Origin: Geminocystis sp. GBBB08
Lineage (GTDB): Bacteria; Cyanobacteriota; Cyanobacteriia; Cyanobacteriales; Cyanobacteriaceae
Direction: 5' to 3'
NCBI RefSeq assembly: GCF_016743215.1
Contig: NZ_VRZC01000011.1
Span: 1-43,115, forward strand
Length of the DNA stretch: 43,115 nt
Position 1 is the first letter of the stretch. Every line of letters starts with the position of its first letter. A model generated the notes under the pieces. It searched no databases, had not been told where the DNA came from, and saw only the letters and a list, made by a program, of their open reading frames with translations. Made by a program: the position numbers and the translations under genes. Positions 7,169 to 26,694 of the stretch are shown here, in pieces.

Positions 7169-7246
7169 TCGCATTATTTACTAAAGTTTAATTTGTAAAT
7201 CATCAAATCGCATTATTTACTAAAGTTTAATTTGTAAATCATCAAA
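7169..7246. repeat. 39-bp perfect tandem duplication
   Basis: Two adjacent identical 39-base units (7169-7207 and 7208-7246). The right-hand unit contains the last nine codons and stop of the kinase gene; the left-hand unit is a non-coding duplicate, so the kinase 3' end has been copied downstream of itself. Confidence 0.9.
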
Positions 7247-9373
7247 TTGTTTTTTGAGTTGTGTCGCATAAGGAGAATTTTGAGCGTAATATAACTTAAT
7301 CGCTTGACGATAATTAGCCATAACTTGAATAGAATTCTCTATATCTCCATCCATATTTCTAACATTCAATAAAACCCATGCTAAATTATGATACAACTCT
7401 GGTAATTTATTATTAATTTTGAGGGCTTTTTCTAAATAAATTTGAGCATTCTGCCATTGTTGCTGATGAGCAAATAAAGTGCCTAAACGATAATAAACTA
7501 AATAATGATTAGAAAATATTTGTTCATATTGGCTATAACTACTTATCGCTTTTTCAGGCTGATTTATCATCTCATAAATAATGCCTTGATTAATTAATAC
7601 CCCATGAGGAAAATCTTGACAAGAAGTCGCTTTTTGCAAGTAATTAATTGCCTCATTTAACTTCCCTTCTTTAGCGTAATGCCACCCTTTTAAACCCCAA
7701 GCATAACCACTATCAGGAATTTGTTGACAAAAATCGTTAATTTTTCTTCCGACATCTTGAGCATTTTTAGTGATAACAGCGTGTTTTAAGCTAAAAATAA
7801 GAATAGGATATACCCAACTTTGCAATTCCTGACTATGACTATTATTAATTTGTTTTGACTTAAAAATAGCTTGAGTTGCGGGGGAAATATCGCAATTCCA
7901 TTGTTTCTGTTTGGTTAAAATCCATGCTTTCACACCTAAAGAAAAAGTACAATTACTATCTAAAGATAAGGCTTGATTTATAACGGTTTCTGCTTCTTGC
8001 CATTTGCCTAACTTTCCCAATCCCCAAGCCAAGTTACTTTTTATCCACCCTTGTTGTGGTGTTAACTCGGAGGCTTTTTGTAAATCTGACACAGCTTTTT
8101 GCCAATTTCCCTGACGACAAGCCATTAAACCTAAAACAGCGTAACTTCTGCCGTCATGGGGATTTAATTTTATCGCCTGATTTGCTGTAATTTCTGCTTG
8201 TTGAGGGTTAACATGAGTTTGTACTAATGCTAATTCTATCATTACCTGATCATTATTCAGCTCACTTTGCAGACAATTTTGATAGGCTTTTACGGCTTCT
8301 ACTAAATTATGTTGCTGTAAAAAATCTTGAGCTTTTTTATGTAAAGGAGAAAGAAAATTTCCTTGTAAAGCCTTAATTAATTCAGTAGCAGTTTGGAATC
8401 TTTCTTCAACTTTAATCCGCATTCCTGTTAAAATAATATTCTCCATTAAAGGAGTAATATCAGGGCGTAATTGACGAGGAGAAATTAAAGGATCTTTACC
8501 TTTATTATGTAAAATAGAATCAACTCTTTCTGCCGCATCTTCAGGTAATTTTCCCGTTAATAATTCATACATTGAGGCACACAAAGCATAAAAATCTGTA
8601 GCCGCAAATCGTTTACTTTTAGTGCTATATTGTTCATAGGGGGCATATCCACGAGTTAGAACAGTACTCATTACACTTATCATACCATTAATAAATTCTT
8701 TGGTAGCACCGAAGTCGATTAAAATGGCGTTATCTTGAGGATTAATAATAATATTTTCTGGTTTTATATCTCGATGTAAGAAATTATTATCATGAATTAT
8801 TTTTAAGGCTTCTGCTATTTGAATAAAGTATTTTTTAATTCGACTCTCACTGATTATTCCTTCTTCTTCAAGAATTTTTAATAAAGATTTACCTTCAATA
8901 AATTCCATGACAATATAAGCAGTATTATTTTCTTCAAAACATTCATAAACTTTGGGAATATTAGGATGAAGACATTTTTTTTGGTTGTCAGATTCTAGCT
9001 TAAATTTTTGAATTTGTAATTGTTTTTCTTTAGGAGTTGTATTCAGTGACCAAATAACGTTATTATCTTGTCTAGCTGATTTTTCTGCCCATAATTCTTT
9101 AATCGCAACGGTAGCTTGATTTGCGAGATAGATACCTTTATAAGTGATACCGAAACCACCTTCGCCGAGGGTTTCTAATATTTGATAACGCCCATTTAAT
9201 AATAAAGTGTTTAGTTTTAAATGATGGGGAGAATTATTTCCAGTATTTTGGGTTTTTTCTTGATTTTTTGAATCATTATCAGAATAAAATTCGATTAAAG
9301 AATAGCCACAAATTTGACAAAAAGTTACACTTAGAGGATTCTGTTCTAAACAAGCTGGACATTGAATAGTCAT
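7220..9373 (-). CDS. Ser/Thr protein kinase with N-terminal zinc ribbon and C-terminal TPR repeats
   Basis: 717 residues. Order: zinc ribbon (Cys5, 8, 19, 22), linker, Hanks-type kinase at ~62-335 with glycine loop GEGGFG at 70-75, ATP lysine 92 (VAIKE), HRDIKPEN at 200-207 and DFG at 220-222, then about ten TPR helical pairs to ~700. All catalytic residues are present, so it should be active. No transmembrane segment is evident, so it is cytosolic. It is the last gene of a minus-strand cluster that also encodes a PP2C phosphatase (94 bases upstream), an FHA protein and a vWA protein; these are the obvious partner phosphatase, phospho-reader and substrate. TPRs suggest a scaffold for protein partners. 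Confidence 0.93.
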   Translation of the reverse strand: MTIQCPACLEQNPLSVTFCQICGYSLIEFYSDNDSKNQEKTQNTGNNSPHHLKLNTLLLNGRYQILETLGEGGFGITYKGIYLANQATVAIKELWAEKSARQDNNVIWSLNTTPKEKQLQIQKFKLESDNQKKCLHPNIPKVYECFEENNTAYIVMEFIEGKSLLKILEEEGIISESRIKKYFIQIAEALKIIHDNNFLHRDIKPENIIINPQDNAILIDFGATKEFINGMISVMSTVLTRGYAPYEQYSTKSKRFAATDFYALCASMYELLTGKLPEDAAERVDSILHNKGKDPLISPRQLRPDITPLMENIILTGMRIKVEERFQTATELIKALQGNFLSPLHKKAQDFLQQHNLVEAVKAYQNCLQSELNNDQVMIELALVQTHVNPQQAEITANQAIKLNPHDGRSYAVLGLMACRQGNWQKAVSDLQKASELTPQQGWIKSNLAWGLGKLGKWQEAETVINQALSLDSNCTFSLGVKAWILTKQKQWNCDISPATQAIFKSKQINNSHSQELQSWVYPILIFSLKHAVITKNAQDVGRKINDFCQQIPDSGYAWGLKGWHYAKEGKLNEAINYLQKATSCQDFPHGVLINQGIIYEMINQPEKAISSYSQYEQIFSNHYLVYYRLGTLFAHQQQWQNAQIYLEKALKINNKLPELYHNLAWVLLNVRNMDGDIENSIQVMANYRQAIKLYYAQNSPYATQLKKQFDDLQIKL

Positions 9374-9380
9374 ATATTAT

Positions 9381-9402
9381 AGTAGGGCGAGGTGTGCATC
9401 GC
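9381..9402. repeat. Short GTAGGGCGA repeat with GCGA/TCGC ends
   Basis: AGTAGGGCGAGGTGTGCATCGC in the gap between the kinase and phosphatase genes. A related copy (GTAGGGCGATGCAC) is at 5268-5286. Small dispersed intergenic repeat, no coding role seen. Confidence 0.4.
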
Positions 9403-9467
9403 AAAATCAATTTAATTTTTTGATAATAAATCAGCCGTTGAAATTCTCAAGGATTTATGGCAAACTT

Positions 9468-11309
9468 TTAAAATTCATAAGGTTTAACAGAGCATTTTAA
9501 AGCGATAATTGTGGCATTATCAGATGCACCTTTGTTTAAAACCTGTTGGATAATTTTATTAATGGCTGAATCGAGGTTATTTTCCTGAATAAAAATATCT
9601 AAAAACTCTTGATTAGTAAAATAATCCCAAACTCCATCACTACATAAAATCAATATATCATTGTTTTCTAAAGTTAGAGATATTGCCTGATTATTTTTAC
9701 TTAAATTTTGCACATAACCAGCACTTAAAACAGATTTTGAGCCTAGGGATTTTATTAACACATTTCTGTCAGGATGATCTAAACTTTCTTCATAGGTAAT
9801 TTGTTCACTAGCTAATAACATATTAACTAAAGAATGATCTTCACTGAGTTGTTTTATTTCTTCTCTTCTGATTAAATAAATGCGACTATCACCCACATGA
9901 CTAATTATTAATTGATTATTTATCGCTAAAATTACGCTTAATGTTGTGCCTCCTTCTTTTACTTGTTGGTTAATGTTTTGGTTTGCTTGATTAAAGATTT
10001 CTGTTAGCCATTTTTGTTGATTTTCTGCATTGTTTAATTCAAAATTAAAGGGAGTTTCTAATAAGGTTTGAATGGCTAATTTACTGGCTAATTCTCCTTG
10101 TGCCATTCCTCCCATACCATCGGCTATACCTGCTAAAATTAGATTATTTTGGTTGATTTCTTGCTGTTTGATGCCATAACTGTCTTCATTAACTAATCTT
10201 TTTGGAGATAAACCTAGTATCGATTTTTTGGCAATTTTCCATGAGATTATGTTTTGTCTTAAACTATTTCTCGTTTCGATTAGTAGTTTTAATAGTTGAT
10301 TTAATGAGTATCTTTCTTCGGCAATTGGTGATAAGCAAACTTGTAAAATTTGATATATTCTAGGAATTAAATTAATAGTTAAATTTTGACGAATAGGTAA
10401 TTTTTGTTCATGAAACATTTGATACATTAATGCACCGATAACATAACTACTCATAAATTGATTAATCTCTTTACTATAGGCTAATTCAGGTGCTGAATAT
10501 GTGCCTAATAAACCCGTTTTTAGTTTTATTTCTTGGGGATAAACATGGGTTAAATCAAAAAACTTAATTGGTGTGCCAATGGAGATAAATTGTGGTGATA
10601 AATCTAAACAATACCAACCATTTTGAGAGATATAAAAAAAGCCTTGACAAAGGGTGACTAAAAGGGATAGTTTTTCTTCGTCACTATGAGATTGACTTAA
10701 CCAGTAAGTAAGGGTATTTTTTTCTTCTGGATAAGGGATAAGAATCAATAATTTAGTGGATGATTCTTGGTTGTCAATTTCGATTTCAGGATAGTATTCT
10801 TCTTCTAAATAATCATCATCTTTTTCTTCTGCTAAATAACTGTCTGTTTCTAAATTATTCTGTTGCGAAGTGAGGGGTAAATCTAGGGTAAAATCTTCTT
10901 GTTTATCTTCTCTATTTTCATCTTGTTGATTCTCGATTATTTCTAAATTTGGACTGTCAGTAAGAGGTAAGTTTTCTTGAAATTCTAAGTCTGTAGATTG
11001 ATTAGTTATCTCTAAGGAAGACGATGGATTAAGGATGATATTTTCTAGGGTGATATTTGCCCATAAATCACTAATCATGCCATAATCATTAAGTTGATTT
11101 CTGAGGTTAATTTCGTGGGATAAGTTACTATCAATATCACCGATTCTCAATAATCCTAAACATTGATTTAAAGTATATTTTTCAGCGTTAATAACTTTAA
11201 CTTGGTAATAGTGAATTCGATTATTTAGTAACCCCAAATATTTAATAATTTCAATTTCAATATTATCTAAAGTTATAGTTTTTCCTTGTTGAATTGTGAC
11301 TAAATCCAT
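9468..11309 (-). CDS. PP2C-family protein phosphatase with N-terminal pseudokinase-like domain
   Basis: 613 residues. The C-terminal ~250 residues are a PP2C (PPM) phosphatase: ADGMGGMAQGELAS, GGTTLSVILA, HVGDSRIYLI, EDHSL and CSDGVWDYFT, with the metal-binding Asp residues. The middle (~205-350) resembles a kinase C-lobe: GTYSAPELAYSK looks like the APE motif, while the catalytic loop is LDLSPQF instead of RDxKPEN and DFG is replaced by DLT, so Lys, Asn and Gly are missing. This predicts a non-catalytic pseudokinase. An acidic Asp/Glu/Ser-rich stretch (~105-180) precedes it. It should dephosphorylate targets of the neighbouring kinase. Cytosolic; no membrane span. Confidence 0.88.
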   Translation of the reverse strand: MDLVTIQQGKTITLDNIEIEIIKYLGLLNNRIHYYQVKVINAEKYTLNQCLGLLRIGDIDSNLSHEINLRNQLNDYGMISDLWANITLENIILNPSSSLEITNQSTDLEFQENLPLTDSPNLEIIENQQDENREDKQEDFTLDLPLTSQQNNLETDSYLAEEKDDDYLEEEYYPEIEIDNQESSTKLLILIPYPEEKNTLTYWLSQSHSDEEKLSLLVTLCQGFFYISQNGWYCLDLSPQFISIGTPIKFFDLTHVYPQEIKLKTGLLGTYSAPELAYSKEINQFMSSYVIGALMYQMFHEQKLPIRQNLTINLIPRIYQILQVCLSPIAEERYSLNQLLKLLIETRNSLRQNIISWKIAKKSILGLSPKRLVNEDSYGIKQQEINQNNLILAGIADGMGGMAQGELASKLAIQTLLETPFNFELNNAENQQKWLTEIFNQANQNINQQVKEGGTTLSVILAINNQLIISHVGDSRIYLIRREEIKQLSEDHSLVNMLLASEQITYEESLDHPDRNVLIKSLGSKSVLSAGYVQNLSKNNQAISLTLENNDILILCSDGVWDYFTNQEFLDIFIQENNLDSAINKIIQQVLNKGASDNATIIALKCSVKPYEF

Positions 11310-11422
11310 TGATTTTTAGTGAATATTTATATAGTAAATAGACTTGGGGTAAAGGTAAGCAAGAAATAATAGTTTCCAGATACTTCTTTCTTCCTTATCC
11401 TCAACCTATGAGTTTTACCAGA

Positions 11423-11450
11423 CTTTGCGTCTTTGCGTCTTTGCGAGAGA
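11423..11450. repeat. Iterated CTTTGCGT repeat
   Basis: Three tandem CTTTGCG(T) units followed by an A-rich tract, between the FHA and PP2C genes. Similar CTTTGCGTCTTTGCG strings are common intergenic repeats in cyanobacteria, from general knowledge. Confidence 0.5.
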
Positions 11451-11456
11451 AAAAAA

Positions 11457-12029
11457 TTAATCGATAATTTGAAAGGTAAAACGAATTTTGGCGATAGCAA
11501 TTTCATCACCATTTTCCAGAATGTCAGGAGTGGTAATACGGGCATTAAAACGATTTTGTCCAACTTTTTTGATAAAAATACCATTAGTTGAGCCTAAATC
11601 TTTAATCTTCCATTGGTGATTCTCGAAGTAAATTTCACCGTGTTGACGAGAAACTGTCTCATTACCTAAAAAATGCTCTAAGTCTATATCCACAGGCCCA
11701 GTATCAGGGTCGAATATACCAATATTAGCATAGTTCTCGATCATAAATTCAGGAATAGGGGCCTTAGGCATTTTACTAATCAACTTGGCTTTACCAGTAG
11801 TAATAGGTGAAGGAGGAGAAGAGGGAATAATGGATTCAGGATTAGAAGGGGTAACTTTAACAGTAGGAGAGGATTCTAAGGAGTCATCAAAAGTAGGTGA
11901 AGGAGGAGAGGGAGGTATATTTGGAGTTACATCTAATGTATTTATAACAAGTTCTGCTCCACAAGCATCACAAAATTCTAAGTCTTCGGGGTTTCGATCA
12001 TATCCACAAACATTACAAGTAATAGTCAT
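11457..12029 (-). CDS. FHA-domain protein with N-terminal zinc ribbon
   Basis: 190 residues. Zinc ribbon at the N terminus (Cys5, 8, 20, 23), then a Pro/Ser/Thr-rich flexible linker (~28-78), then an FHA domain (~95-188) with the conserved phosphothreonine-binding residues in VSRQHGEI and DLGSTNGIFI. FHA domains bind phosphothreonine peptides, so this should read phosphorylation by the kinase at 7220-9373. The zinc ribbon resembles the one on that kinase. The linker itself contains several Ser-Pro and Thr-Pro sites that could be phosphorylated. 68 bases downstream of the vWA gene, likely co-transcribed. Confidence 0.93.
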   Translation of the reverse strand: MTITCNVCGYDRNPEDLEFCDACGAELVINTLDVTPNIPPSPPSPTFDDSLESSPTVKVTPSNPESIIPSSPPSPITTGKAKLISKMPKAPIPEFMIENYANIGIFDPDTGPVDIDLEHFLGNETVSRQHGEIYFENHQWKIKDLGSTNGIFIKKVGQNRFNARITTPDILENGDEIAIAKIRFTFQIID

Positions 12030-12097
12030 AGAATTAATTAATTTATCAGTAATAAAAATATCGAATTTACCATTTATAACGACTAATTTATTCTTCT

Positions 12098-13498
12098 TTA
12101 AGTGCCTGTTAATTGGCGAATTTGCTCATCGGATAAGCCCTCATCTAAATCAGTAGTTGACATTTTGACGGTTTTACCCTTAGCTCCCATTTTAACGGTT
12201 TTACGAGTGCTAGAGGAAATTTTACGGGTTTTGCGTAACTCGATAATGCCTTCATTGAGGGATTCTAACATATCCTGATTCCCAATTTTAACGGTAAGAC
12301 GACGGGCAGTCTCCATTTTTTGCTCTGCTAATTCGGGGTTTTCTTCAGCTACTTTTGTGGCATCATCTATTAATTGACTTATGTTTCTTTGTTGAACATA
12401 CCCCATTACTTCTTGATCTACGGCAGTGGTTGCTCCTTGTCCTGCTAAAAATTGGACTACAATATTCTGGGGAGGTAACTCTCCTCGACGATTTTGGGCG
12501 GGGACATCATAAGTTAAGCCTAATTGTGCTACTCTAACTTTAGAACTAGCTCGACTATCTACATCAAATTCGAGGATAAACACTGTTTCATCGTTGCCTC
12601 TAGCTGAACCGATATGATAGGGTTGCTGTAATAAGGGAAATTCTGCTTGTTCGGGATATACTCTTGTTACTCTGTTTAATTCAACTCCTTTGACGGTTTT
12701 GATATTCATGGCAAGATTATTGATAACTTCACCGATAGTGTTTTGATATTCTTCAAAGATTGTTTGTGCTACTTTCTCTACTGGTATTTGTGTACCTTTT
12801 GCTTCTTTTTCGACAATATGATATAGTCGCCCGGCGGTGGTATCTCCTAAGTTAATTAACAAATCTTCGTTATATTCACCGATACCTAAAGCGGTAATAG
12901 GAATACTATTTTCAGCAAATTTTTTCGCTAATTCTTGACATTCAAATTCATCAAATGTTTGCCCATCAGTAAATATAATCGCCCTTTTACTTGTCATGGA
13001 TTGTTTACTTAAAATATTTAAGGCTTCTTCCATGCCTTTACCCATACAAGTGCCTCCGCTAAATTCTTTTAAACGGGCGATCGCATTTTTTAAGTCTTGT
13101 TTTTGAGTAGTTGGAGTTAAAGGAATAAGAGTGGACGCTTGATCGTCAAACTGTATTAAACATACCTTATCTTGCTGATTAAGTAAACCCGAATCGATTA
13201 AATTATTGAGGGATTCAATGACAATATCAATCTTACTTTTACCGCCAGTAACTTCTCGATATTGGTTGCCGTCAGTGGTAATAAAATTACCTGTTGGTTG
13301 AGGATTACCTGAGACAATTTCATACATTGAACCACTGGTGTCAATTAAAATACTAACAGTGGTTGAAGGGCGACTATTTGCTACTTCTTTTATCGGGCGT
13401 AATTTTAGCATAATAAACAATTTTTGATCTGCTGTATCGGCGGCTAAAAATTCTCGATGGGGTGTAATTTCTACTTTTAAAGGGTTATTTAATTCCAT
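12098..13498 (-). CDS. vWA-domain protein with Thr-rich phospho-acceptor-like tail
   Basis: 466 residues, no signal peptide or membrane span, so cytosolic. A vWA domain occupies ~45-235 with an intact MIDAS: DTSGS at 53-57, GGTCMGKGM for the Thr, and FTDGQ for the Asp, predicting divalent-metal-dependent ligand binding. A beta-rich middle follows and a basic helical stretch. The tail carries TRKTVKMG, KTVKM and STTDLDEGLS; TDLD fits the TxxD pattern that many FHA domains prefer when the Thr is phosphorylated. It lies directly upstream of the FHA gene. Likely a TerY-like target or effector of the kinase and phosphatase next to it; substrate status is inference. Confidence 0.9.
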   Translation of the reverse strand: MELNNPLKVEITPHREFLAADTADQKLFIMLKLRPIKEVANSRPSTTVSILIDTSGSMYEIVSGNPQPTGNFITTDGNQYREVTGGKSKIDIVIESLNNLIDSGLLNQQDKVCLIQFDDQASTLIPLTPTTQKQDLKNAIARLKEFSGGTCMGKGMEEALNILSKQSMTSKRAIIFTDGQTFDEFECQELAKKFAENSIPITALGIGEYNEDLLINLGDTTAGRLYHIVEKEAKGTQIPVEKVAQTIFEEYQNTIGEVINNLAMNIKTVKGVELNRVTRVYPEQAEFPLLQQPYHIGSARGNDETVFILEFDVDSRASSKVRVAQLGLTYDVPAQNRRGELPPQNIVVQFLAGQGATTAVDQEVMGYVQQRNISQLIDDATKVAEENPELAEQKMETARRLTVKIGNQDMLESLNEGIIELRKTRKISSSTRKTVKMGAKGKTVKMSTTDLDEGLSDEQIRQLTGT

Positions 13499-15159: not shown

Positions 15160-15569
15160 TTATCTTAATAATGCTCTAAATCCAGCTTGTTCAAAATGCT
15201 TATCGTAAGCAAGAGCAATACAATATTTTGTTTTTCCATTATATAAAAAGATGAGCAATCAGTTAAACTCCATTGTTTATCTAATCTTTTTTTATACAAT
15301 TCTAAAGATTTTTTAATTAATTCTTCTGTTTGAGATATGACTTCTATTTGAGGATTTGTGAAAGAATATTCGATAAATTTAACTGCTTTTTGTTTATAAA
15401 TTTTTCCCCTCCCAGAAAAAGCATTTAATAACTCAGTAAATATCATTTCACTGGTGACAATAGTTGTATTGCCAATAGAAGTTGTTATTTCTCTTGTTTT
15501 TTGATGTAAGCTATCATCAGGATTTAATAATGCAATCCAATATCCAGTATCAGCAAAGATTTTTTTCAT
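15160..15569 (-). pseudogene. Frameshifted PIN-domain toxin (VapC-like)
   Basis: ATG at 15569 opens a typical PIN toxin: MKKIFADTGYWIALLNPDD, VTSEMIFTELLNAF and QWSLTDCSSFYIMEKQNI. The frame is then lost near 15217-15225 and runs to a stop at 15165. In the neighbouring frame the expected ending ALAYDKHFEQAGFRALLR continues to a stop at 15160-15162. One inserted or two deleted bases would restore it. The lost part contains the fourth acidic residue (YDKHF) of the active site, so the toxin is probably inactive, unless this is a sequencing error. Starts two bases after the antitoxin gene. Confidence 0.85.
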
Positions 15570-15571
15570 GG

Positions 15572-15838
15572 TTACTGTTTAGGATTACCGTAAAGATAAT
15601 AGTCTAAATTTTGGGCAAAATCTTCAGGGAGTTTTGTCGTTAATTCCTGTGAAGTTTCGGCGTTAAGCTCATCAATAAACGTTAAAAAAGATGGAATTTG
15701 AGTATCTTGTGATAAAGAATCCTGCGAGGTTGATAGTTGTTTTTTTGATTTGATAAATAATAAAAAATTTAGAACTTCTTTGACTAAAATATCAGGTGTA
15801 TTTTCAATTTCATGAATTAATTGTTCTCTTTCCAACAT
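15572..15838 (-). CDS. Antitoxin of the frameshifted PIN toxin (DUF2281-like)
   Basis: 88 residues: N-terminal helix MLEREQLIHEIENTPDILVKE followed by VLNFLLFIKSKK, the pattern of DUF2281-type VapB antitoxins, then an acidic disordered region that would wrap the PIN toxin. Two-base gap to the toxin gene. Apparently intact although its toxin is broken, the usual outcome since loss of toxin is tolerated first. Confidence 0.78.
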   Translation of the reverse strand: MLEREQLIHEIENTPDILVKEVLNFLLFIKSKKQLSTSQDSLSQDTQIPSFLTFIDELNAETSQELTTKLPEDFAQNLDYYLYGNPKQ

Positions 15839-16085
15839 AAAATTATATTCTCAAATAAATACTATATAAACATAATAACAAAAAATATTTATGCTTAAAA
15901 TATTATTTCACAAAACAGATATTTCTCCTCACTTATTAACTCTTATTAAGGAAAATATTAATCAGAATACTCTTACTCAATTTTAACTAAATATAAAACT
16001 ATTCATAATTTGTCTATTACTTGATCATTTTCATCCTAACTTTTAGCTAAAATAGCTATATAATCCAAGAAAATTAACTAAAATA
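15839..16085. promoter_or_regulatory. Divergent promoter region between two TA modules
   Basis: 247 very AT-rich bases between divergent antitoxin genes; promoters for both must lie here. I could not define -10 or -35 boxes with confidence. A 32-codon frame at 15892 has no recognisable features and is not called. Confidence 0.4.
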
Positions 16086-16454
16086 ATGAAAAGTTTAACG
16101 GCATCAGAAGCAAAAAATAGGTTTGGAATGTTATTAGATTGGGCTAGACGAGAACCTGTTATCATTGAAAAACAAGGGCGACAAGTTGCTATTTTACTTT
16201 CTGTGGAAGAATATGAGCGTTTATTAATGACAAATCAATCATCATCTAATTTAGACAAGCAGGATTTATCTCTTGAGGAAAGATTAGCTATTTTAAGATT
16301 ACCAGAAGAAGAACGCTCTCAAATTCTATTAGAAAGTGCTGATAAAATGTTATCTCATTATCAAAACAATAGTGAATGGCAAGAATTAAGCGGAGGAGAT
16401 TTTGTTGAATATAAAGAAAAATATACCCAAAAGAGGAGAAATTTGGTTAGTTAA
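16086..16454 (+). CDS. Phd/YefM-family antitoxin
   Basis: 122 residues. The N-terminal ~55 residues are a Phd/YefM DNA-binding fold (SLTASEAKNRFGMLLDWARR, PVIIEKQGRQVAILLSVEEYERL). The C-terminal half is an extended helical toxin-binding region (LSLEERLAILRLPEEERSQI). It would repress its own operon and neutralise the overlapping MazF/PemK-like toxin. The toxin start lies inside its 3' end (about 50-base overlap), implying translational coupling. Confidence 0.9.
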   Translation: MKSLTASEAKNRFGMLLDWARREPVIIEKQGRQVAILLSVEEYERLLMTNQSSSNLDKQDLSLEERLAILRLPEEERSQILLESADKMLSHYQNNSEWQELSGGDFVEYKEKYTQKRRNLVS

Positions 16455-16779
16455 TTTAGAGCCAACTTTGGGAGTAGAAATAAAAAAAATACGCCCTGTC
16501 ATAGTCATTAATTCTGATGCTATTGGTAAGTTACCATTAAAGTTAATTGCACCTGTTACTGACTGGAAAAATTACTTTGCTCAAAATCCTTGGCACGTTA
16601 AAATTATCCCTAATAAGGTTAATAATTTAAGTAAAATTTCCGCCGTTGATACTTTACAATTGAGAGGTGTTGATATTCAACGTTTTCAAAAAAAATTAGG
16701 GGTTTTATTCCCTGAAGAAATGAAGATAATTATGGTGGCTATTCTTACAATTATTGATGTTAATTTAAGTGAATTTTAA
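16405..16779 (+). CDS. MazF/PemK-family mRNA interferase toxin
   Basis: About 124 residues with the MazF/PemK hallmarks PKRGEIWLVNLEPTLGVEIKK, RPVIVINSDA and SAVDTLQLRGVDIQRF. These toxins are ribonucleases that cut mRNA at short sequences. There is no ATG; TTG at 16402 or 16405 is the only sensible start, and GGAGGAG just upstream (16392-16398) is an excellent ribosome-binding site whose spacing favours 16405. The start lies within the antitoxin gene. Appears full length, so the module should be functional. Confidence 0.88.
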   Translation: MNIKKNIPKRGEIWLVNLEPTLGVEIKKIRPVIVINSDAIGKLPLKLIAPVTDWKNYFAQNPWHVKIIPNKVNNLSKISAVDTLQLRGVDIQRFQKKLGVLFPEEMKIIMVAILTIIDVNLSEF

Positions 16780-17041: not shown

Positions 17042-18535
17042 TTAAATATCTAAAAAATTAGCATCATATCTTCCTGTTAGTAACCAATAAATAGGTGATA
17101 ATATACCAAAAGGTTTCCAATTATCAGGATTTTTTAATATAGCTCCGTAATGATCATAGTAGTATCCATTTGATTCTATCATTCCATTATTTTTGACAAT
17201 ACCAAATAAAGAACATGAAAAATAAGCAATAGAAATATTTGATCTTTTCCCCCATTCATCAAAAGCATTTTTTGTTAAAGGAAATCGTTGTTTTAAAAAA
17301 CTATTCATATCATTTTTATAAGGGTATAATTTTGGATGATCAAAATGATGAAAAATGACAGGTATTCTTTTTAATACAAGTTTATCATATTGACTTAAAT
17401 AACGGCTCAAATTATTAATACTTTTTGCTATTTGAGAATCTTCTTCATGACGTAATCCATTAAAAAAAAATAGTGTTTTAGAAAAATTTAACTGTTCAAA
17501 ACAATCTTTTAACCACTCATTTTCTTCAAGTTTATACTTGTTCATACCTTCTAAAAATTCTCTTCCTATAATACTGACGATTATTTGTTTATTATTGAAA
17601 GTAGTTTTTTTTTGAATTTTAAAAGAGTAATAAGAATCATGAATATCACTCCATTTAGAGTTAGTCAGAGATAGTGATTCATATAACAACCCTTCAAGAA
17701 ATATATATTCACAAGATTCACTAAGGTTTAGTGTATAATCATCTATGGGAATAATTTGAATATTAGTATGATTAAATTTTTTATGTAAATAGCTTAATAT
17801 TGGTAAATATTCTGGAAGATATGCACTTCCGTATCCCAATATTAGTAAGGAATTAATGTTATCAATTTTATCAAATTCATCTTCTTTTTTATAAACGGGC
17901 AGGAAATTAAACCATTTATTTTTCTCTTTGCCTGTAGATGCTTCAAAATTAGGTTCAACAAATAATGTATTTTTGCTAAATAAATTTTCATCATCAATAC
18001 AAAAAGTTTGCCATAAACTATTGCTATGATTAATAATAGTTTGTAAGTCTAATAATTTTAATTTTAATAATTCTAATTCATTAGGGGCAAGAGAAAAAGT
18101 ACGATCTTCAAAAATTCTACAAAAAATTGCCTCGAAAGGACTTTTTAACTTACGAATACCACTTTTTAATTGATTATCAATATAATTTAATGTATTTTGA
18201 GAGATATTATAAACTTGTTCTTGAAAAGAAAAAGCATATTTCAAAGCATCTTTATTTTGTTTTTGCCCTTCACTTAACCATGTAAAATACTCAATAATAG
18301 TATCAGGATTAACTATCGCTCTTAAGGTTAAAAGTCGCACCATTTCCATGGTATAAATTTTGTTATTAAGGGCTAAATTAATATTGTTACTATTAAGAAT
18401 TTCCTCCCATTCTTCTTTCTTATACTTATTATATCCAATGGCTTGATCGATGATTTCTAAATGTTTTTGTTTGATATTTACCCGTCTGGTTAAACCTTTA
18501 ACCGCTGTAATAATTTGATCTTTTTCTACTTTCAT
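17042..18535 (-). CDS. GAP1-middle-domain-like protein fused to a catalytically dead GTPase
   Basis: 497 residues. Residues ~1-110 match a helical segment of the 718-residue protein at 22091-24247 (~235-335): I-TAV-L-IK, W-x-x-I, then IYxxEMxRLxTL and TWL. Residues ~228-497 align with the neighbouring GTPases: LILGYGSAYLPEYLPILSYL (~231-250) occupies the P-loop position but lacks GKT; IIPIDD...SESCEYIFLEG (~261-282) matches IQPLND...AENAENIIVEG of the 19713 GTPase; YYSFKIQ matches YYSFQLQ; IVSIIGREF replaces DYPGE; FHHFD replaces SKCE; and NPDNWKPFGILSPIYWL matches the shared GTPase C terminus. I infer a pseudo-GTPase regulator. Transcribed divergently from the GTPase run, sharing the 18536-18670 promoter gap. 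Confidence 0.75.
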   Translation of the reverse strand: MKVEKDQIITAVKGLTRRVNIKQKHLEIIDQAIGYNKYKKEEWEEILNSNNINLALNNKIYTMEMVRLLTLRAIVNPDTIIEYFTWLSEGQKQNKDALKYAFSFQEQVYNISQNTLNYIDNQLKSGIRKLKSPFEAIFCRIFEDRTFSLAPNELELLKLKLLDLQTIINHSNSLWQTFCIDDENLFSKNTLFVEPNFEASTGKEKNKWFNFLPVYKKEDEFDKIDNINSLLILGYGSAYLPEYLPILSYLHKKFNHTNIQIIPIDDYTLNLSESCEYIFLEGLLYESLSLTNSKWSDIHDSYYSFKIQKKTTFNNKQIIVSIIGREFLEGMNKYKLEENEWLKDCFEQLNFSKTLFFFNGLRHEEDSQIAKSINNLSRYLSQYDKLVLKRIPVIFHHFDHPKLYPYKNDMNSFLKQRFPLTKNAFDEWGKRSNISIAYFSCSLFGIVKNNGMIESNGYYYDHYGAILKNPDNWKPFGILSPIYWLLTGRYDANFLDI

Positions 18536-18949: not shown

Positions 18950-19699
18950 TTGGGAGTAATTTATATAGGCGATCGAACGGCAGGAAAAACCCATTTAGCC
19001 TTAGAATTAGCCAATCCTCAAAGTAATTATGTCAGAGTAATTCACCCCGATTATCAACAGATAAAAAGTTTGTTATATGATACTAATTCACAGTCAACAA
19101 AACCCACAGAAGCCGATAAATCATTTCATGATAAATATCTAAATATTAATGTCCAATTACCCACAGGAAATAAAGAAATCCACTCCGATTGGTTAGACAC
19201 TGGGGGAGAAATTTGGCGTAAATATTGGCAAGAAGGCAACCCAGAAAAATGGCAAGAATTTTTAACTACCATTAGACAAAGTGAGGGTATTTTATTAATT
19301 TTACCGCCCTATCGTCAATTAATAAATAATTATCCTAATCCCGAAGAATTTATTACCCAAAAACAATGGTGTAATCGTTTTGAAAGATGGATTAATTTCT
19401 TTAAATATGATTGCCCTAAAATTCGTCATTTATTACTATGCTTAAATAAAGCTGATTTATTTTGTAATGTACAACAAGAAGGCAATTTATTAGGGTATAT
19501 TCCTAATCGTTCTCGTTTTAATTGGCAACAAAGAAATGAATACGTTTATCAGCGTTATTTTGTTCCAATTCACCCTCAAATCAGAGAATTAAATCAAAGT
19601 ATTTCGGGTTTATCCGTGCGTTTTTTTATTACTAGCATTTATAATCGCAATTTGCTAGAATTACCTTGGATATATTTAGGCAGTTTTTTATCAAAATAA
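18950..19699 (+). CDS. P-loop GTPase 1 of the GTPase/GAP1 locus
   Basis: 249 residues from TTG 18950, chosen because GGGAGGT lies about 6 bases upstream and the frame begins GVIYIGDR as a P-loop strand should. P-loop GDRTAGKT at 7-14, DTGG-E (83-87) in the G3 position, and NKAD at 166-169 as a canonical G4. It is the only one of the three with an orthodox NKxD. No membrane span. Followed after 13 bases by GTPase 2, so co-transcribed. Resembles the small GTPases named double-GTPase in conflict-system surveys; exact family needs a profile search. Confidence 0.82.
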   Translation: MGVIYIGDRTAGKTHLALELANPQSNYVRVIHPDYQQIKSLLYDTNSQSTKPTEADKSFHDKYLNINVQLPTGNKEIHSDWLDTGGEIWRKYWQEGNPEKWQEFLTTIRQSEGILLILPPYRQLINNYPNPEEFITQKQWCNRFERWINFFKYDCPKIRHLLLCLNKADLFCNVQQEGNLLGYIPNRSRFNWQQRNEYVYQRYFVPIHPQIRELNQSISGLSVRFFITSIYNRNLLELPWIYLGSFLSK

Positions 19700-19712: not shown

Positions 19713-20531
19713 ATGGGCAACATCGTTGTAATTGGTCCCCGTCGATCGGGCAAAACTACTTATTTAGCAGCATTATCTTATTTACCAGCGTTAAGAAGTA
19801 GAAAAGGAAAAGACAGCAATTTTAAAATTCAACCCCTTAATGATGAATCACGGGATTTAGCAGAAAATGCCGAAAATATCATTGTGGAAGGAGCAACTTT
19901 TGAGCCTACAGTCATAGGAGATAAATTACAAAGTGTTGATGATTTGCCTTATTATTCTTTTCAATTACAAGTAAAAAAAGGTTTATTAAAAAAACCAGAA
20001 AACATCCAAATAAATGTCAGAGATTACCCCGGAGAAGTATTTGAAAAAATCGCCGATCGAAATTTATCCGATGAAATTCATCAGGAATTTATTGACGAAT
20101 GTTTGATGAGTGATGTTAATGGTTGTCTAATTTTATTTACTCAATGGGAACATGGTACAGATAAATTTTATTATCGGGTAATGAGTCAATTTCTTAAACT
20201 TATGGATGAAAGAAATCGCACTAATAATTTAAAATTAGCGGTAGTAATGAGTAAGTGTGAAAGAGGAGAATTGTGGCCGGGAAGAATTGATCCTGAAACG
20301 GATTTATTTGGCATTCATTTACCCCGCACAAAAACGATTTTAAAAGATAGTCTTAACTCGAAAAATTTACAATTTTATGCCCTATCAACCTTCGGAGTTT
20401 TACACAAAAATGATCCTCGTCCTAATAGAATAGATCAAGCAGGTTCAAATGGTTCAGAATCAGTTTTAAGAGAGCCTAATAGTTGGCAACCTTATAATTT
20501 AATTGAGCCTTTATACTGGTTAAGTAAATAA
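19713..20531 (+). CDS. P-loop GTPase 2 of the GTPase/GAP1 locus
   Basis: 272 residues. P-loop GPRRSGKTT at 8-16, G3 DYPGE at 104-108, and SKCE at 180-183 in the G4 position instead of NKxD, followed by ALSTFG as G5. Ends EPNSWQPYNLIEPLYWL, a C-terminal motif shared with GTPase 3 and with the dead GTPase at 17042-18535. The G4 change may alter nucleotide specificity. 13 bases after GTPase 1. Probably a double-GTPase-type component; cytosolic. Confidence 0.83.
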   Translation: MGNIVVIGPRRSGKTTYLAALSYLPALRSRKGKDSNFKIQPLNDESRDLAENAENIIVEGATFEPTVIGDKLQSVDDLPYYSFQLQVKKGLLKKPENIQINVRDYPGEVFEKIADRNLSDEIHQEFIDECLMSDVNGCLILFTQWEHGTDKFYYRVMSQFLKLMDERNRTNNLKLAVVMSKCERGELWPGRIDPETDLFGIHLPRTKTILKDSLNSKNLQFYALSTFGVLHKNDPRPNRIDQAGSNGSESVLREPNSWQPYNLIEPLYWLSK

Positions 20532-21081: not shown

Positions 21082-21948
21082 ATGTTTAAAAATATTATTA
21101 ATAAACTCAAAAATTCATCGGAATTTACCCAAGAAAATGCTAATATTAGACTGATCGGCGATCGACAATCGGGAAAAACAAGCTATATGGCATCCCTAGC
21201 CTATTATCCCAACGCCAGTAAAGACAGTTTCGTGCAGAATATTATCCCCATTGGGGAAGACGCAGAAAACCTCATCACCCAAGCCCAAAATATCCTCGAA
21301 CAAGGATTAGAATTAGAACCCACTTTTTTAAAAGCTAATATTGACGAAGTAAAAGACTATACCTTGAGTATAACCTTAGCAAATCAGGTAAAATTAACCA
21401 TTAATTGTAAAGACTATGCTGGAGAATTTTTTAGTGATTTAATGTTTAAAATAGGAGATACTTTACTAGATGATTATTTAGATGACTGCCTTCAAGCAAC
21501 AGGAATTATATTGTTAATTGACGGCACATCTTACCGTAAAGATAGCGAATATGCTCAAGGATTAGACAAATTTTTAGTAGCCTTAAATCAAGCAGATTTG
21601 AGTCAAGGAAAAAGAAGAATTGCGGTAACATTTAGCAAATGTGAGCAATCAGAATTGTGGATAAATCGTCAATTTGCTGAAAAAATAGCAAACAATCGTT
21701 TTCCGCAACTTTATAGACGCTTACAGGCATGGCAAAAATTAAATATAGGAGAGGTATCTTATTTTACTACTTCTGCTTTTGGAGTGTTAGGAAGTCAATT
21801 TCCCGAAGCAAATTCTCAGAAAATAAGTAGGGGTAGAGAAGGCACAAAATCCATTATCAAAAATCCTCGCCGTTGGCGCCCTTATGGTTTAGTATCCCCC
21901 ATTTATTGGCTTTGCACTGGTAAACGTAATCCTAAATTAGAGGAGTAA
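21082..21948 (+). CDS. P-loop GTPase 3 of the GTPase/GAP1 locus
   Basis: 288 residues. After a ~20-residue N-terminal extension: P-loop GDRQSGKTS at 26-34, G3 DYAGE at 111-115, SKCE at 185-188 in the G4 slot, TSAFG as G5, and the C-terminal motif NPRRWRPYGLVSPIYWL. Closest in the window to GTPase 2 (same spacing of AENL...ILEQGLELEPT). Upstream of the GAP1-like gene with only a tiny broken ORF between, suggesting direct partnership. Confidence 0.83.
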   Translation: MFKNIINKLKNSSEFTQENANIRLIGDRQSGKTSYMASLAYYPNASKDSFVQNIIPIGEDAENLITQAQNILEQGLELEPTFLKANIDEVKDYTLSITLANQVKLTINCKDYAGEFFSDLMFKIGDTLLDDYLDDCLQATGIILLIDGTSYRKDSEYAQGLDKFLVALNQADLSQGKRRIAVTFSKCEQSELWINRQFAEKIANNRFPQLYRRLQAWQKLNIGEVSYFTTSAFGVLGSQFPEANSQKISRGREGTKSIIKNPRRWRPYGLVSPIYWLCTGKRNPKLEE

Positions 21949-22090: not shown

Positions 22091-24247
22091 ATGACTAGAC
22101 AAATAGAAATTCACGAATTTAGCACAGGTATTGTTATCGAAACTAAAGCCGATGGTAGTTGGTTTTCCAGAGGGTTTACGGGAAAATACATGAATTGCAC
22201 ATTTGACCCGATTCCCTACCCCATCCAAGAAGCCATTAGTAACCGTCTGTTTGCCATTGCCGAAGGCGCATCTAGTGACACTCCCGCCATAATTGGGAGA
22301 GAAGTAGAAAGTCAAGAAGAATGTTGGTGTGTAGTATCAATTGTAACTAAGGCTAGAGACGAATCTCGCAGTTTTTCCGCCTATCGTTATTTTTGTGTGG
22401 AGGGTAAGGGTAATCTCAACAAAATTTTGCGGTTTTTGAAGGAAAATCCCCTACAATTTAACCCCCTCGATGAAAAAACTATCGGTAATCCTCACCTATT
22501 CATCGACAACCATGAAATGAAAATACCTCTCGACAATTTTCAAGATTTATTTACCCAATCTATCCCTGTTATTATACCTTTCGATCGAACCTGTGTACCT
22601 ACAGTTATCAATGCCATAGCGGAAGAAATGGCAGGAGAAAATATGACGGCATGGGCATATAATGTACAGGCGTTGGATAAACCTGCTAGTTTTTACCTCA
22701 TCAAACCCCATGATGAAAAAGCAGAAGTAATTATTCGCAAAAGTTTAAGTAATCAAGTAATTTTAAATCGCCCTATTTTTGAAGAACAAAAAATTAAAAC
22801 GGCGGTGACAAGTTTATGTAAAAAGAATAAGATAAAAAGGGAATATATCCAAACTTTAGAAAATGCTTTAAGTAACCCAGATATTAACGATAAATTTTGG
22901 CAAAAAATTTTTGATGGACAAGGATTAAAAAAATCTAAATCTGAGGGTATTTATAATGATGAAATGATGAGGCTTTTTACCCTATATGCTATCATTTTAC
23001 CTCAGACATTATCAGAATTTTTAACATGGCTAAAAGGCATTAAAAAAGATGATTTATTTACTATATCTGATCATTTTCAACAAGAAATATTAAAGCTATT
23101 AACCTTAGAAGTTAGCTCAAAATATATAGTAGAAAGAATAGAGTTAGCAGTGATTTCAATCATCCCTTCTTTATTAAAAGATGACACTATAGTAGAGGAA
23201 GTAATAAATTTATTAAAAACAGAAAAAAGTCTTTGGAGATATTATTATATTAATCGCATTAGTAAATATATTGATCATGATTTAAAGTTAATGAAAAACT
23301 ATGGTAAACAAAAAGAATTAAGTGATCAATTAAAAATATTTGAAAATGAATCATGGATAACAATAAGAGATGAATTAACTATAGCTTGGCGTATTCATTC
23401 CACCTCAAATAAAAGATTTAAACCTATTCCTAAATATCAAGTATGGGTGAGATTATTTGATGGCTTAAACGAGAGTAAATTGGCTTTATTTTTCGCCCAT
23501 GTTGCGTATGATAAAGTACCGAAAGATATTTTTAGTAAGGTAAAAAAAGTTAGCTTTGGGAGTAATTATTATTGTAAAATTTATGATGTTAATACAACTA
23601 GAGAAGTCGGTATTGTTGAACAATTTATCTTAGAATTAAACGAATTATTCAATATAAAAATAGATATGAAACTCTGGAAAATTATTATTTTAGTTTTTTT
23701 CTGTTTAGGATTAGGAGGCTTAGGAGGCTTTTTTTCTCGTGTTTTTTTATTTCCCTCTAAACTAGAAAAATCTGCCAACAGTTTTATTCAAAATCAAGTA
23801 AAAGATCTTGATAATAAAGATGAATTAAAAAATAAAAAATCAGAGATAAGAGAAAACATATACAAAACTTTTGACTCTGAAAATAGTAAGTTAATAAAAG
23901 AAGTTTTTAAATGTTATCCTAATCCTGAAAAATGCGAAGTAAAAAACAAATATAGTGAACAAATTAACATTGCTGTCAATCAATTTGATAAAACACGAGG
24001 AATTATCTTAAATATAAAAAGTGAATTAAAATTAGATGATAATAATATGCAAAAAAAATTAAGAGAAATTTTAAATGATTCTAAACTAAATTATATAGAA
24101 GCGATTGAAAAAAATCATAAAAATTATCAGGAATATTGGGTAAAAGCGATTTATAAATATCAACTTGATAATGATTTAACCCCAGATGGAATTATTAATT
24201 CAGGTGGAAAAACCTTAGAATCACTCAAAAAAGATTTAGCAAAATAA
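22091..24247 (+). CDS. GAP1-like membrane-anchored protein with PG-binding-like C terminus
   Basis: 718 residues. Residues ~1-225 form an N-terminal domain with DGSWFSRGFTGKY, CTFDPIPYPIQEAISNRLFAI and RYFCVEGK. Residues ~235-335 form the helical middle region shared with 17042-18535. A single membrane span lies at ~529-549 (LWKIIILVFFCLGLGGLGGF). A charged coiled-coil-rich part follows, and residues ~681-717 (AIYKYQLDNDLTPDGIINSG) resemble a peptidoglycan-binding type 1 motif. The N-terminal and middle parts fit GTPase-associated protein 1 of GTPase-centred conflict systems. It likely receives a signal from the GTPases. If the tail is outside, it would sense or bind the cell wall; topology is inferred. 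Confidence 0.78.
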   Translation: MTRQIEIHEFSTGIVIETKADGSWFSRGFTGKYMNCTFDPIPYPIQEAISNRLFAIAEGASSDTPAIIGREVESQEECWCVVSIVTKARDESRSFSAYRYFCVEGKGNLNKILRFLKENPLQFNPLDEKTIGNPHLFIDNHEMKIPLDNFQDLFTQSIPVIIPFDRTCVPTVINAIAEEMAGENMTAWAYNVQALDKPASFYLIKPHDEKAEVIIRKSLSNQVILNRPIFEEQKIKTAVTSLCKKNKIKREYIQTLENALSNPDINDKFWQKIFDGQGLKKSKSEGIYNDEMMRLFTLYAIILPQTLSEFLTWLKGIKKDDLFTISDHFQQEILKLLTLEVSSKYIVERIELAVISIIPSLLKDDTIVEEVINLLKTEKSLWRYYYINRISKYIDHDLKLMKNYGKQKELSDQLKIFENESWITIRDELTIAWRIHSTSNKRFKPIPKYQVWVRLFDGLNESKLALFFAHVAYDKVPKDIFSKVKKVSFGSNYYCKIYDVNTTREVGIVEQFILELNELFNIKIDMKLWKIIILVFFCLGLGGLGGFFSRVFLFPSKLEKSANSFIQNQVKDLDNKDELKNKKSEIRENIYKTFDSENSKLIKEVFKCYPNPEKCEVKNKYSEQINIAVNQFDKTRGIILNIKSELKLDDNNMQKKLREILNDSKLNYIEAIEKNHKNYQEYWVKAIYKYQLDNDLTPDGIINSGGKTLESLKKDLAK

Positions 24248-25221: not shown

Positions 25222-26694
25222 TTATTCAGTTTTTTGATGATGAAATTCTAAGGTAACAAATCCTAATTTTCTTTTATCTTGATCATTCAATTGATGTTTT
25301 AAGGTTTTCATACCTTTAACTTGGGCGTATTCGGTGTCATATTCCATAATAATTTGATTATTTTCGATGTAAATTTTGGCAGTAATGGGATAATATCCTT
25401 GAGATTGGGGTAAGTAAATATGGGCATTTTTGGCACAGCCTAAAACAATGGGTTTTTCTCCTAATGAAATAGTAGTTTTTTCTTTTTCATTCCAGTTAAC
25501 AATTAAGCTATATTTCCTGTTAATTTGTTCAATTAAGGCTATCATTAAACCGAGAAAAAAGCCTAAAATTGTTGTACCGACTAAACGCCCGATAATAGCT
25601 GTAGAATATTGAGTAATGAGAAGAAATGCGATCGCACCCATTAAACCTCCAATTAAACCTCCAATCAACCCCCGTGACAACTTTAAATTAGGCACAAAAA
25701 AAGCCATACCACCGCCTACCAATGCACCTAAGATACCCCAACCAATTAAACGGGGAATGATAGGAGAAAATCCCATATTTGCTAAAGGAGTAAAAATTAA
25801 CTGCCCAATACTACCAGCCACAAATCCAGCACATAAACTACTGATTAAGCCAAGGGTAGCCTCTTGGGGAGAAAGTAAACGACGGTGTAAATAATGATTT
25901 TGCCCAATTATCAAAGCAATAGATACACCAAGAGAAATTAAGGCTGTCCAAATACCAATGCGTAAAGTACCATAAATTAAAGGATAATTACCCGATTCTC
26001 CCGATTCTACTAATTGTTGACTATAAATCAACTTTTCTGCTTCTTGGAAAGCTGTATCAAAATTGCCACTATTAGCAAAAAAAACCTTATTCTCATCTCC
26101 GGTTAACTCCGTCAAAAACTGTGTATCCGCATCCCCCGTGGCGATCGCAATTAAGTTAATGCCTTCATTTTTGATGATTTGTGCTTCCTCCATGGTTTTT
26201 TCGAGAGATTCGGCAATTCCATCGGTAAACAGCAACAAATTCTTCTGCAAACTGCTATTACTCAATTCTACCCTCCCTGCTTCCAAACCTCGATCTATTC
26301 TTGTGCCTCCTCCATCATCCACAGATTCGATCGCCTTTTCTATTTGCCTTAGATTAGAAGTAAGAGGAGAAGTAATATGAACATCAGTACCAAAACCAAT
26401 TACGGCAATTTGATCTTGATTTTCTGTAGTTTTAGCAATACTAAGATTTTGACGCTTAACAAATTTAGTAGCGGCGGTTTTCACTTCCTCTAATTTCCCG
26501 TAATCCATACTGCCAGAGGCATCAATTAACAATACAACGGCTTGAGGTTGTCTAAGGGGAGTCGGAGGTAAGGCAGTCAAAGATAAAAACAACTCTCCTA
26601 AGAGTAAAGAGGCGACTAAACAACCAATTGCACCATAAAAACCAAATAACAAAGGTTTACCTAACTTTCTTCGCCAATTTCTAAATATTTCCAT
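25222..26694 (-). CDS. vWA-domain membrane protein with FHA-like C-terminal domain
   Basis: 490 residues. One membrane span at ~15-40; vWA domain ~50-230 with MIDAS DASGS at 58-62, GGTRIDRG and FTDG; then about six glycine-zipper spans (~240-400) and a soluble beta-rich tail (~410-485) with ISLGEKPIVLGCAKNAHIYL. The span region and tail are paralogous to the whole protein at 14157-15044, so this is that protein plus an N-terminal vWA module. The predicted layout puts the vWA domain outside and the FHA-like tail inside. Probably couples an external ligand to the intracellular phospho-signalling set. Confidence 0.85.
   Translation of the reverse strand: MEIFRNWRRKLGKPLLFGFYGAIGCLVASLLLGELFLSLTALPPTPLRQPQAVVLLIDASGSMDYGKLEEVKTAATKFVKRQNLSIAKTTENQDQIAVIGFGTDVHITSPLTSNLRQIEKAIESVDDGGGTRIDRGLEAGRVELSNSSLQKNLLLFTDGIAESLEKTMEEAQIIKNEGINLIAIATGDADTQFLTELTGDENKVFFANSGNFDTAFQEAEKLIYSQQLVESGESGNYPLIYGTLRIGIWTALISLGVSIALIIGQNHYLHRRLLSPQEATLGLISSLCAGFVAGSIGQLIFTPLANMGFSPIIPRLIGWGILGALVGGGMAFFVPNLKLSRGLIGGLIGGLMGAIAFLLITQYSTAIIGRLVGTTILGFFLGLMIALIEQINRKYSLIVNWNEKEKTTISLGEKPIVLGCAKNAHIYLPQSQGYYPITAKIYIENNQIIMEYDTEYAQVKGMKTLKHQLNDQDKRKLGFVTLEFHHQKTE

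Follow-up and report, generated by a model that had tools for sequence, protein, structure and literature searches.

The window analyzed here, an entire contig of 43,115 bases from a 4.1-Mb genome, encodes a 497-residue protein (17042..18535, minus strand) that joins an all-helical module to a relative of the DO-GTPases whose nucleotide-binding motifs have eroded. Judged by sequence, the N-terminal part, to about residue 190, is a mobile adaptor common to a neighboring hub protein and to varied satellite proteins, and the C-terminal part a pseudo-GTPase for which a small-GTPase fold is predicted. We tentatively propose, at somewhat less than an even chance, that the protein works independently of nucleotide as a connector with two hands, within a DO-GTPase system of cyanobacteria.

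The locus suggests that one cyanobacterial order possesses a DO-GTPase system whose hub and adaptor have no Pfam family among the matches listed. The adaptor provides a sequence handle with which the satellites of each hub can be found. Furthermore, the dead GTPase makes it testable whether bacterial signaling systems reuse dead GTPases as scaffolds, in the manner of eukaryotes.

Organization of the locus

The gene, recognized by its open reading frame, ATG start, and domain matches, lies on the minus strand at the coordinates given by the first-pass annotation. Transcribed away from it on the plus strand is a series of four genes arranged like an operon: three GTPase genes (g1, g2, and g3) and the hub gene. 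The first of these, g1 (18950..19699), encodes a divergent GTPase with an intact P-loop (GDRTAGKT); its match to the Pfam DO-GTPase1 model (E 2e-4) is under the cut-off, and hhalign against alignment A4 returns 80.8% (P 1.3e-5). The DO-GTPases g2 (19713..20531) and g3 (21082..21948) also have intact P-loops and match PF19975 above the cut-off (E 4.5e-7 and 1.2e-8, respectively). At least two paralogous DO-GTPases therefore adjoin the hub gene, g2 and g3 by the Pfam cut-off and g1 by profile. The hub protein itself (718 aa; 22091..24247, plus strand) consists of an N-domain, a copy of the adaptor module (22778..23155, plus strand; HMM E 3.8e-49), and a C-part with a weak match to PG_binding_1 (Pfam E 0.019).

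Downstream of the hub gene lies a gene for a vWA protein (25222..26694, minus strand). A linked island on the minus strand (7220..13498) carries, likewise by Pfam, genes for a kinase-TPR protein (7220-9373), a PP2C (9468-11309), an FHA protein (11457-12029), and a second vWA protein (12098-13498). Between the pseudo-GTPase gene and a gene for a 295-residue hydrophobic protein (14157-15044) is a stretch of small ORFs (15165-16779) that includes a PemK/MazF-like toxin gene (16402-16779, Pfam). The same genome holds a second copy of g3, 83% identical (G000:C130:361-1170; L029:322-1188), on a 5.4-kb contig where no g1, g2, or hub gene was found.

The 497-residue protein has no Pfam match at E<=10, PF19975 and PF19993 included. 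An intergenic promoter scan gave 4 sites, no more than chance would predict (4.4). No orthologue was found in a scan of named genomes with the whole protein as query, and the A1 query returned three loci; parts of the system are annotated as "hypothetical protein," for example in Gloeothece verrucosa PCC 7822. A phage origin was rejected by tblastn against 50,697 phage records (zero matches at E<=1e-3), as was a plasmid origin: among 72,556 plasmid records 8 matched, none with 80% of the query in one place.

Homology and predicted fold of the two halves

By BLASTP, residues 210-489 align with g3 (26% identity, E 1.8e-18), residues 227-485 with g2 (23%, E 4.6e-18), and residues 4-108 with residues 231-333 of the hub protein (30%, E 6.4e-12). 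Smith-Waterman comparisons agree, the scores standing 34 SD (228-497 vs. g3), 28 SD (228-497 vs. g2), and 18 SD (1-110 vs. the hub protein) above shuffled sequences, with 0 of 300 shuffles reaching the real score in each case. The C-part thus follows g2 and g3 as the first-pass annotation had described. Residues 111-227 have no pairwise match to any of the four neighbors.

The all-helical adaptor module (residues 1-190; 17966..18535, minus strand) belongs to the family of hub residues 230-355, and an adaptor HMM built in this work matches the protein across residues 1-129 (E 6e-52). Homology between the middle of the hub protein and residues 1 to about 110 had been noted before and stands; the boundary at 110 is too short, because, in a profile alignment of 46 copies, homology in the helical part continues to about residue 190, with W175 nearly invariant. 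The DO-GTPase-like domain occupies residues 228-493 (17057..17854, minus strand), where an HMM of DO-GTPase relatives gives E 4e-65, the window protein itself being a row of that model.

AlphaFold2 predicts a small-GTPase fold for residues 202-497 from alignment A4 (pLDDT 80.6, pTM 0.82). VIA-align matches this model to YcjX, Arf, and Rag-like chains with Z up to 14.0, and Foldseek to Galpha and Ras-like chains with a best E of 2.8e-4 and low TM-scores (0.27-0.37 by query length, among the matches listed). The GTPase fold anticipated from sequence is the one predicted; the call is partly homology-based, because most rows of A4 are GTPases with intact motifs. Residues 1-205 yield an all-helical model (pLDDT 86.7, pTM 0.82) whose best PDB matches (Foldseek E 0.3, VIA Z 6.6) are only to generic helical repeats, so no PDB fold was assigned to this half.

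Loss of the nucleotide motifs

The losses fall mainly on the nucleotide motifs. At the Walker A (G1) site (17813..17836, minus strand), where relatives have GxxxxGK[ST], GDRQSGKT is replaced by GYGSAYLP, with YLP standing in place of GKT. At the G3 site (DYAGE), DYxG is deleted and the next Glu retained (residues 325-326; 17558..17563, minus strand). Alignment thus bears out the reported absence of GKT and of the DxxG Asp. The reported loss of G4 holds in part: the region reads HHFD in the dead GTPase and SKCE in g2 and g3, so that the canonical NKxD is absent from these as well, the acid is kept, and the loss amounts to the Lys only. Retained at the C-terminus is the family signature WKPFGILSPIYWLLTG (residues 473-488; 17072..17119, minus strand).

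Among 37 columns conserved at >=90% in 52 relatives, the dead GTPase keeps 21. Of the nucleotide-motif columns 2 of 10 are kept, against 19 of 27 for the remainder (Fisher p 0.0095); past residue 410 the figure is 12 of 13, against 9 of 24 before it (Fisher p 0.0016). Both tests used columns grouped by hand, in groupings framed after the alignment had been inspected. The final set comprised 147 GTPase domains, of which 132 were assessed; the other 15 entered the alignment without everything before the P-loop Lys (the same cause left 14 of 111 unassessed in the motif count made at the conserved-column stage). Across the 132, the P-loop Lys or Ser/Thr is lost in 4, the window's included, the DxxG Asp in 7, and both in 3; erosion over eight motif positions is greatest in the window protein. 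The kinase-fused L128 (earlier L030), whose P-loop is one residue short, escapes this count. GTPase genes with a lost P-loop adjoin g1 in L130, L129, and L151.

Given the replacement of GKT and the deletion of DYxG, the protein is not filed as a working DO-GTPase. Its resemblance to the DO-GTPases is one of fold and ancestry, and it has probably ceased to bind nucleotide.

The helical module as a mobile adaptor

The adaptor occurs in 119 of 895 ORFs from 168 loci, the window included, in a count that left out nested ORFs, the EAD1 and GAP1 comparison loci, and the Gloeothece locus; two congeneric remnants enter no ORF count. The hub N-domain accompanies it in 92 of the 119 and is absent from 27. 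The first-pass annotation described a pseudo-GTPase joined to the regulator's own domain. The sequence does show a pseudo-GTPase joined to a domain of a regulator-like protein, and the three GTPase genes alongside have intact P-loops. The N-part, however, does not belong to the regulator alone, because those 27 ORFs carry it without the hub N-domain.

The partners of these 27 satellites are varied. Pfam, run on 18 of them, identified WD40 repeats in one, TPR in three, and a caspase domain in one (PF00656, E 1.1e-11), the remainder showing no clear partner family; a hydropathy script marks hydrophobic, TM-like segments in many satellites. A hub-type gene lies within 5 kb on the same contig for 17 of the 27, the window gene among them, and a hub copy is present among the fetched loci in 17 of 20 satellite genomes, G029, G356, and G077 being the exceptions. 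The 27 probably include some ORFs cut at contig ends (L114, L119), and also L118 (G356), whose module, at residues 253-361, groups with a hub copy at 100/100 and which is probably a diverged hub.

Two satellites illustrate the range of architectures. In G351, a 983-residue protein with the N-terminal caspase domain and an adaptor is encoded at L102:3918-6869 (plus strand), 506 bases from a hub gene. In G003, the gene at L025:4901-6688, 47 bases from a hub gene, combines TPR repeats, an adaptor, and the remainder of a hub C-part; its architecture suggests that part of a hub gene was duplicated and acquired a different N-terminus.

A tree was built from 98 adaptor copies, and 23 of its 95 inner branches are open. 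To account for the 29 satellite copies it requires 12 changes, at least 8 of which are forced by well-supported branches; satellites are often placed next to hub copies from their own genus or family. The closest relative of the window's copy in this tree is a WD40 fusion of the congener G001 (100/97), followed by a TPR fusion of G020 (100/98). The adaptor is found in 81 of 388 sampled genomes of one cyanobacterial order (E<=1e-6); in a sample of the phylum it occurs in 20 of 386 (E<=1e-5), all of the window's own genome or its genus, family, or order.

This pattern favors a connector or scaffold. In the search for the same fusion elsewhere, the combination of the adaptor with a DO-GTPase domain was found only in the window gene (1 of 119 ORFs). 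This single occurrence counts against the connector reading, since conservation beyond one case is not demonstrable.

Ancestry of the GTPase half and its fused relatives

The resemblance to g2 and g3 that had been described is not that of a recent copy. Descent as a recent copy of g3 or of g2 was rejected (AU p 0.0016 each) in a tree whose rows were the congeners' g3 and g2 and the second g3 copy of the same genome, the window's own g2 and g3 being absent from it; the groups for this test were named after the first tree had been seen. A clade of the dead GTPase with two kinase-fused GTPases was not rejected (AU p 0.51). The placement of the dead GTPase is unsure, because its branch is very long (2.75) and its composition odd; when L030 (= L128) is omitted, its row shifts towards L009 and others. 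One truncated row, L040, was left out of the tree.

DO-GTPase domains also appear at the C-terminus of other proteins: Ser/Thr kinases (L128:4561-6504, L152:4730-6412, L181:3027-5087), a CHAT protein (L182:525-2501), and a GUN4 protein (L155:6049-9723). In L131, the kinase-linked GTPase part is split across two ORFs, and in L154 the GTPase is followed, by eye, by a hydrophobic stretch. No g1 or hub gene was seen within the 12-14 kb fetched around L128, L152, and L155. Taken with the lost-P-loop genes near g1, these C-terminal fusions suggest that the GTPase fold may be used as a docking part. Most fused satellite GTPases retain the P-loop Lys and Ser/Thr, and thus satellite docking need not generally be GTP-independent.

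The locus in congeners

The gene for the 295-residue hydrophobic protein was identified in congeners by eye, on the strength of its first residues. Beside it, the congener G003 has a frameshifted remnant that matches only residues 1-99 (79% identity to residues 1-61 and 74% to residues 62-99). The like spot in G001 has the adaptor module with WD40 repeats behind it, interrupted by stops, and no match to the module was found in G002 or G004. It would seem that, at a single locus, the adaptor has been joined to different partners, as expected under exchange; loss of the gene, of which the broken remnants are evidence, is consistent with dispensability. The N-module evolves fast: by NG86, dN is 0.35 and dS 0.63 against its WD40 relative (dN/dS ~0.55), and for g3 dN is 0.06 and dS 0.95.

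With neither congeneric remnant intact, decay has to be weighed seriously against the connector, although on balance it is unlikely. The gene would then be a former satellite whose GTPase function has been lost and whose reading frame is by chance still open. The condition of the locus in all four congeners, the dN/dS of the N-module, and the very long GTPase branch would suit such a history, whereas codons 206-497 remain open in AT-rich DNA whose other five frames have 22-48 stops, and the losses center on the nucleotide motifs while conservation past residue 410 persists (12 of 13 columns under the post-inspection grouping). As for the remnants, G001's had a WD40 partner and G003's partner is gone, so neither bears directly on the pseudo-GTPase form.

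A putative connector between hub and GTPases

In the mechanism we propose for the connector, the helical N-module (residues 1-190) would be an EAD-type adaptor, one copy of which resides in the hub while others recruit satellites to it, probably through contacts between copies. The C-module would be a satellite DO-GTPase stripped of its GTP-binding motifs, with the remaining fold and the C-terminal signature kept. Because these are retained, it may still occupy a DO-GTPase docking site, most likely at g2 or g3. Given that the protein has no further recognized domain, it would serve to keep GTPases and hub in one assembly or, alternatively, to lock one GTPase partner in a GTP-independent manner and so set the threshold of the switch. 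Every physical contact and every effect on the switch is something we infer; the protein may also, as the first-pass annotation suggested, compete for, or scaffold, the active GTPases. A broader picture, which we regard as possible but doubtful, is that of a cyanobacterial DO-GTPase network with its own adaptor and hub, in which GTPase folds would act as docking tags (on kinases, CHAT, and GUN4 proteins) and the dead form as the connector of hub and GTPase.

It is quite improbable that the C-module acts in a dominant-negative fashion, pairing with g2 or g3 instead of their proper partner and turning the system off, with the adaptor merely concentrating the protein locally. Kaur et al. propose that DO-GTPases act in pairs (PMC7159879), and the predicted fold and C-terminal signature are both retained; on present data such pairing is inseparable from the connector.

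A decidedly improbable explanation is a decoy: a dead GTPase resembling g2 or g3 would trap an invader factor that attacks the active GTPases and report to the hub via the adaptor. Inactive enzymes have been proposed as decoys or effectors in related systems (PMC7159879), and the N-module evolves fast; yet no such invader factor is known, and at 23-26% identity the domain is not a recent copy and would be a poor mimic of g2 or g3. Phage-defense models of PADLOC-DB match the linked kinase at 7220-9373 (PD-T4-6, E 1.7e-54; mad6, E 2.7e-54) and the PP2C at 9468-11309 (PDC-M21C, E 6.3e-13), perhaps through mere membership of large enzyme families, as these models may hit any kinase or phosphatase. 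The same database is silent at E<=0.01 on the pseudo-GTPase protein, g1, g3, and the hub, and gives one marginal match for g2 (mad8, E 0.0091).

That nucleotide is still bound through an altered site is very improbable: the Glu after the lost DYxG, the G4 acid, and the predicted fold are retained, but the P-loop Gly, Lys, and Ser/Thr are replaced, DYxG is gone, and the domain is the most eroded of the 132.

Relationship to known systems

The name "GAP1-like," which the first-pass annotation gave to the hub protein, finds no backing in the Pfam listings or in hhalign. With 18 diverse hubs as queries, GAP1 models are absent from the matches listed (25 of 35 Pfam families, E<=1), and hhalign of the hub against one genuine GAP1-N2/GAP1-M protein gives a probability of 0.6%. 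GAP1-M has no match in the window's own genome and two in 120 genomes of the order. A distant kinship of hub and GAP1 may exist. The genuine GAP1-N2/GAP1-M protein of L156 (G077:C59) comes from a genome in which an adaptor satellite is likewise present; the ORF downstream of it presumably begins like Hsp70.

YcjX and the Arf/Rag GTPases bind nucleotide, and in eukaryotes pseudo-GTPase folds serve as protein-binding or regulatory modules. The predicted fold of the C-part resembles YcjX and the Arf/Rag GTPases (PDB 6nz6, 8s5c, and 8yl2; VIA Z 14.0, 13.9, and 13.6), at 7-14% identity among the matches listed. Eukaryotic pseudo-GTPases include domains of p190RhoGAP and the dynein light intermediate chain (PMC9840978, PMC4359372). 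Unlike these, the window protein is bacterial and fused to a hub-type adaptor; the likeness would be one of role.

The nearest bacterial parallel is the GTPase-centric DO-GTPase/GAP1 conflict systems (Kaur et al., 2020, eLife 9:e52696, PMC7159879). In both, DO-GTPase genes precede a hub gene, and variable partners are coupled to the hub. Unlike those systems, the window's is cyanobacterial and has three GTPase genes, its hub is without a Pfam GAP1 model among the matches listed, an adaptor inside the hub is common to the satellites, and one satellite is a pseudo-GTPase. The nearby kinase, PP2C, and vWA genes recall the third GAP1-N2 theme, which is composed of these three and reported there as restricted to actinobacteria (PMC7159879).

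The adaptor in turn resembles the effector-associated domains EAD1-EAD10 and bDLD (PMC7159879; Kaur et al., 2021, PMC8195603). Adaptor domains common to core and effector proteins are described there (PMC7159879), and like the EADs the window's module is small, helical, and non-enzymatic, with copies on the core protein and on varied partners that are often encoded adjacently, and it is lineage-specific, its copies being closer kin within a lineage in the 98-copy tree. Unlike them, it sits in the middle of the hub. No EAD is among the matches listed for 46 adaptor members (25 of 30 Pfam families). Identity with EAD1 (PF19955) found no support in profile comparison, as hhalign of A3 against 16 EAD1 sequences gives only 0.1%; no EAD1 was found in the window's own genome. 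Binding between adaptor copies is itself a prediction made by Kaur et al. for EAD-type domains (PMC7159879).

A last parallel is with iSTAND and other inactive enzymes, which likewise combine a nucleotide-binding fold that lacks catalytic motifs with a place in a signaling complex (PMC7159879, PMC8195603); unlike iSTAND, the window protein has a GTPase rather than a STAND ATPase. Neither the adaptor nor its fusion to a pseudo-GTPase was found described in the literature searched, which covered few subscription papers. The general principles are those of Kaur et al. (2020, 2021; PMC7159879, PMC8195603).
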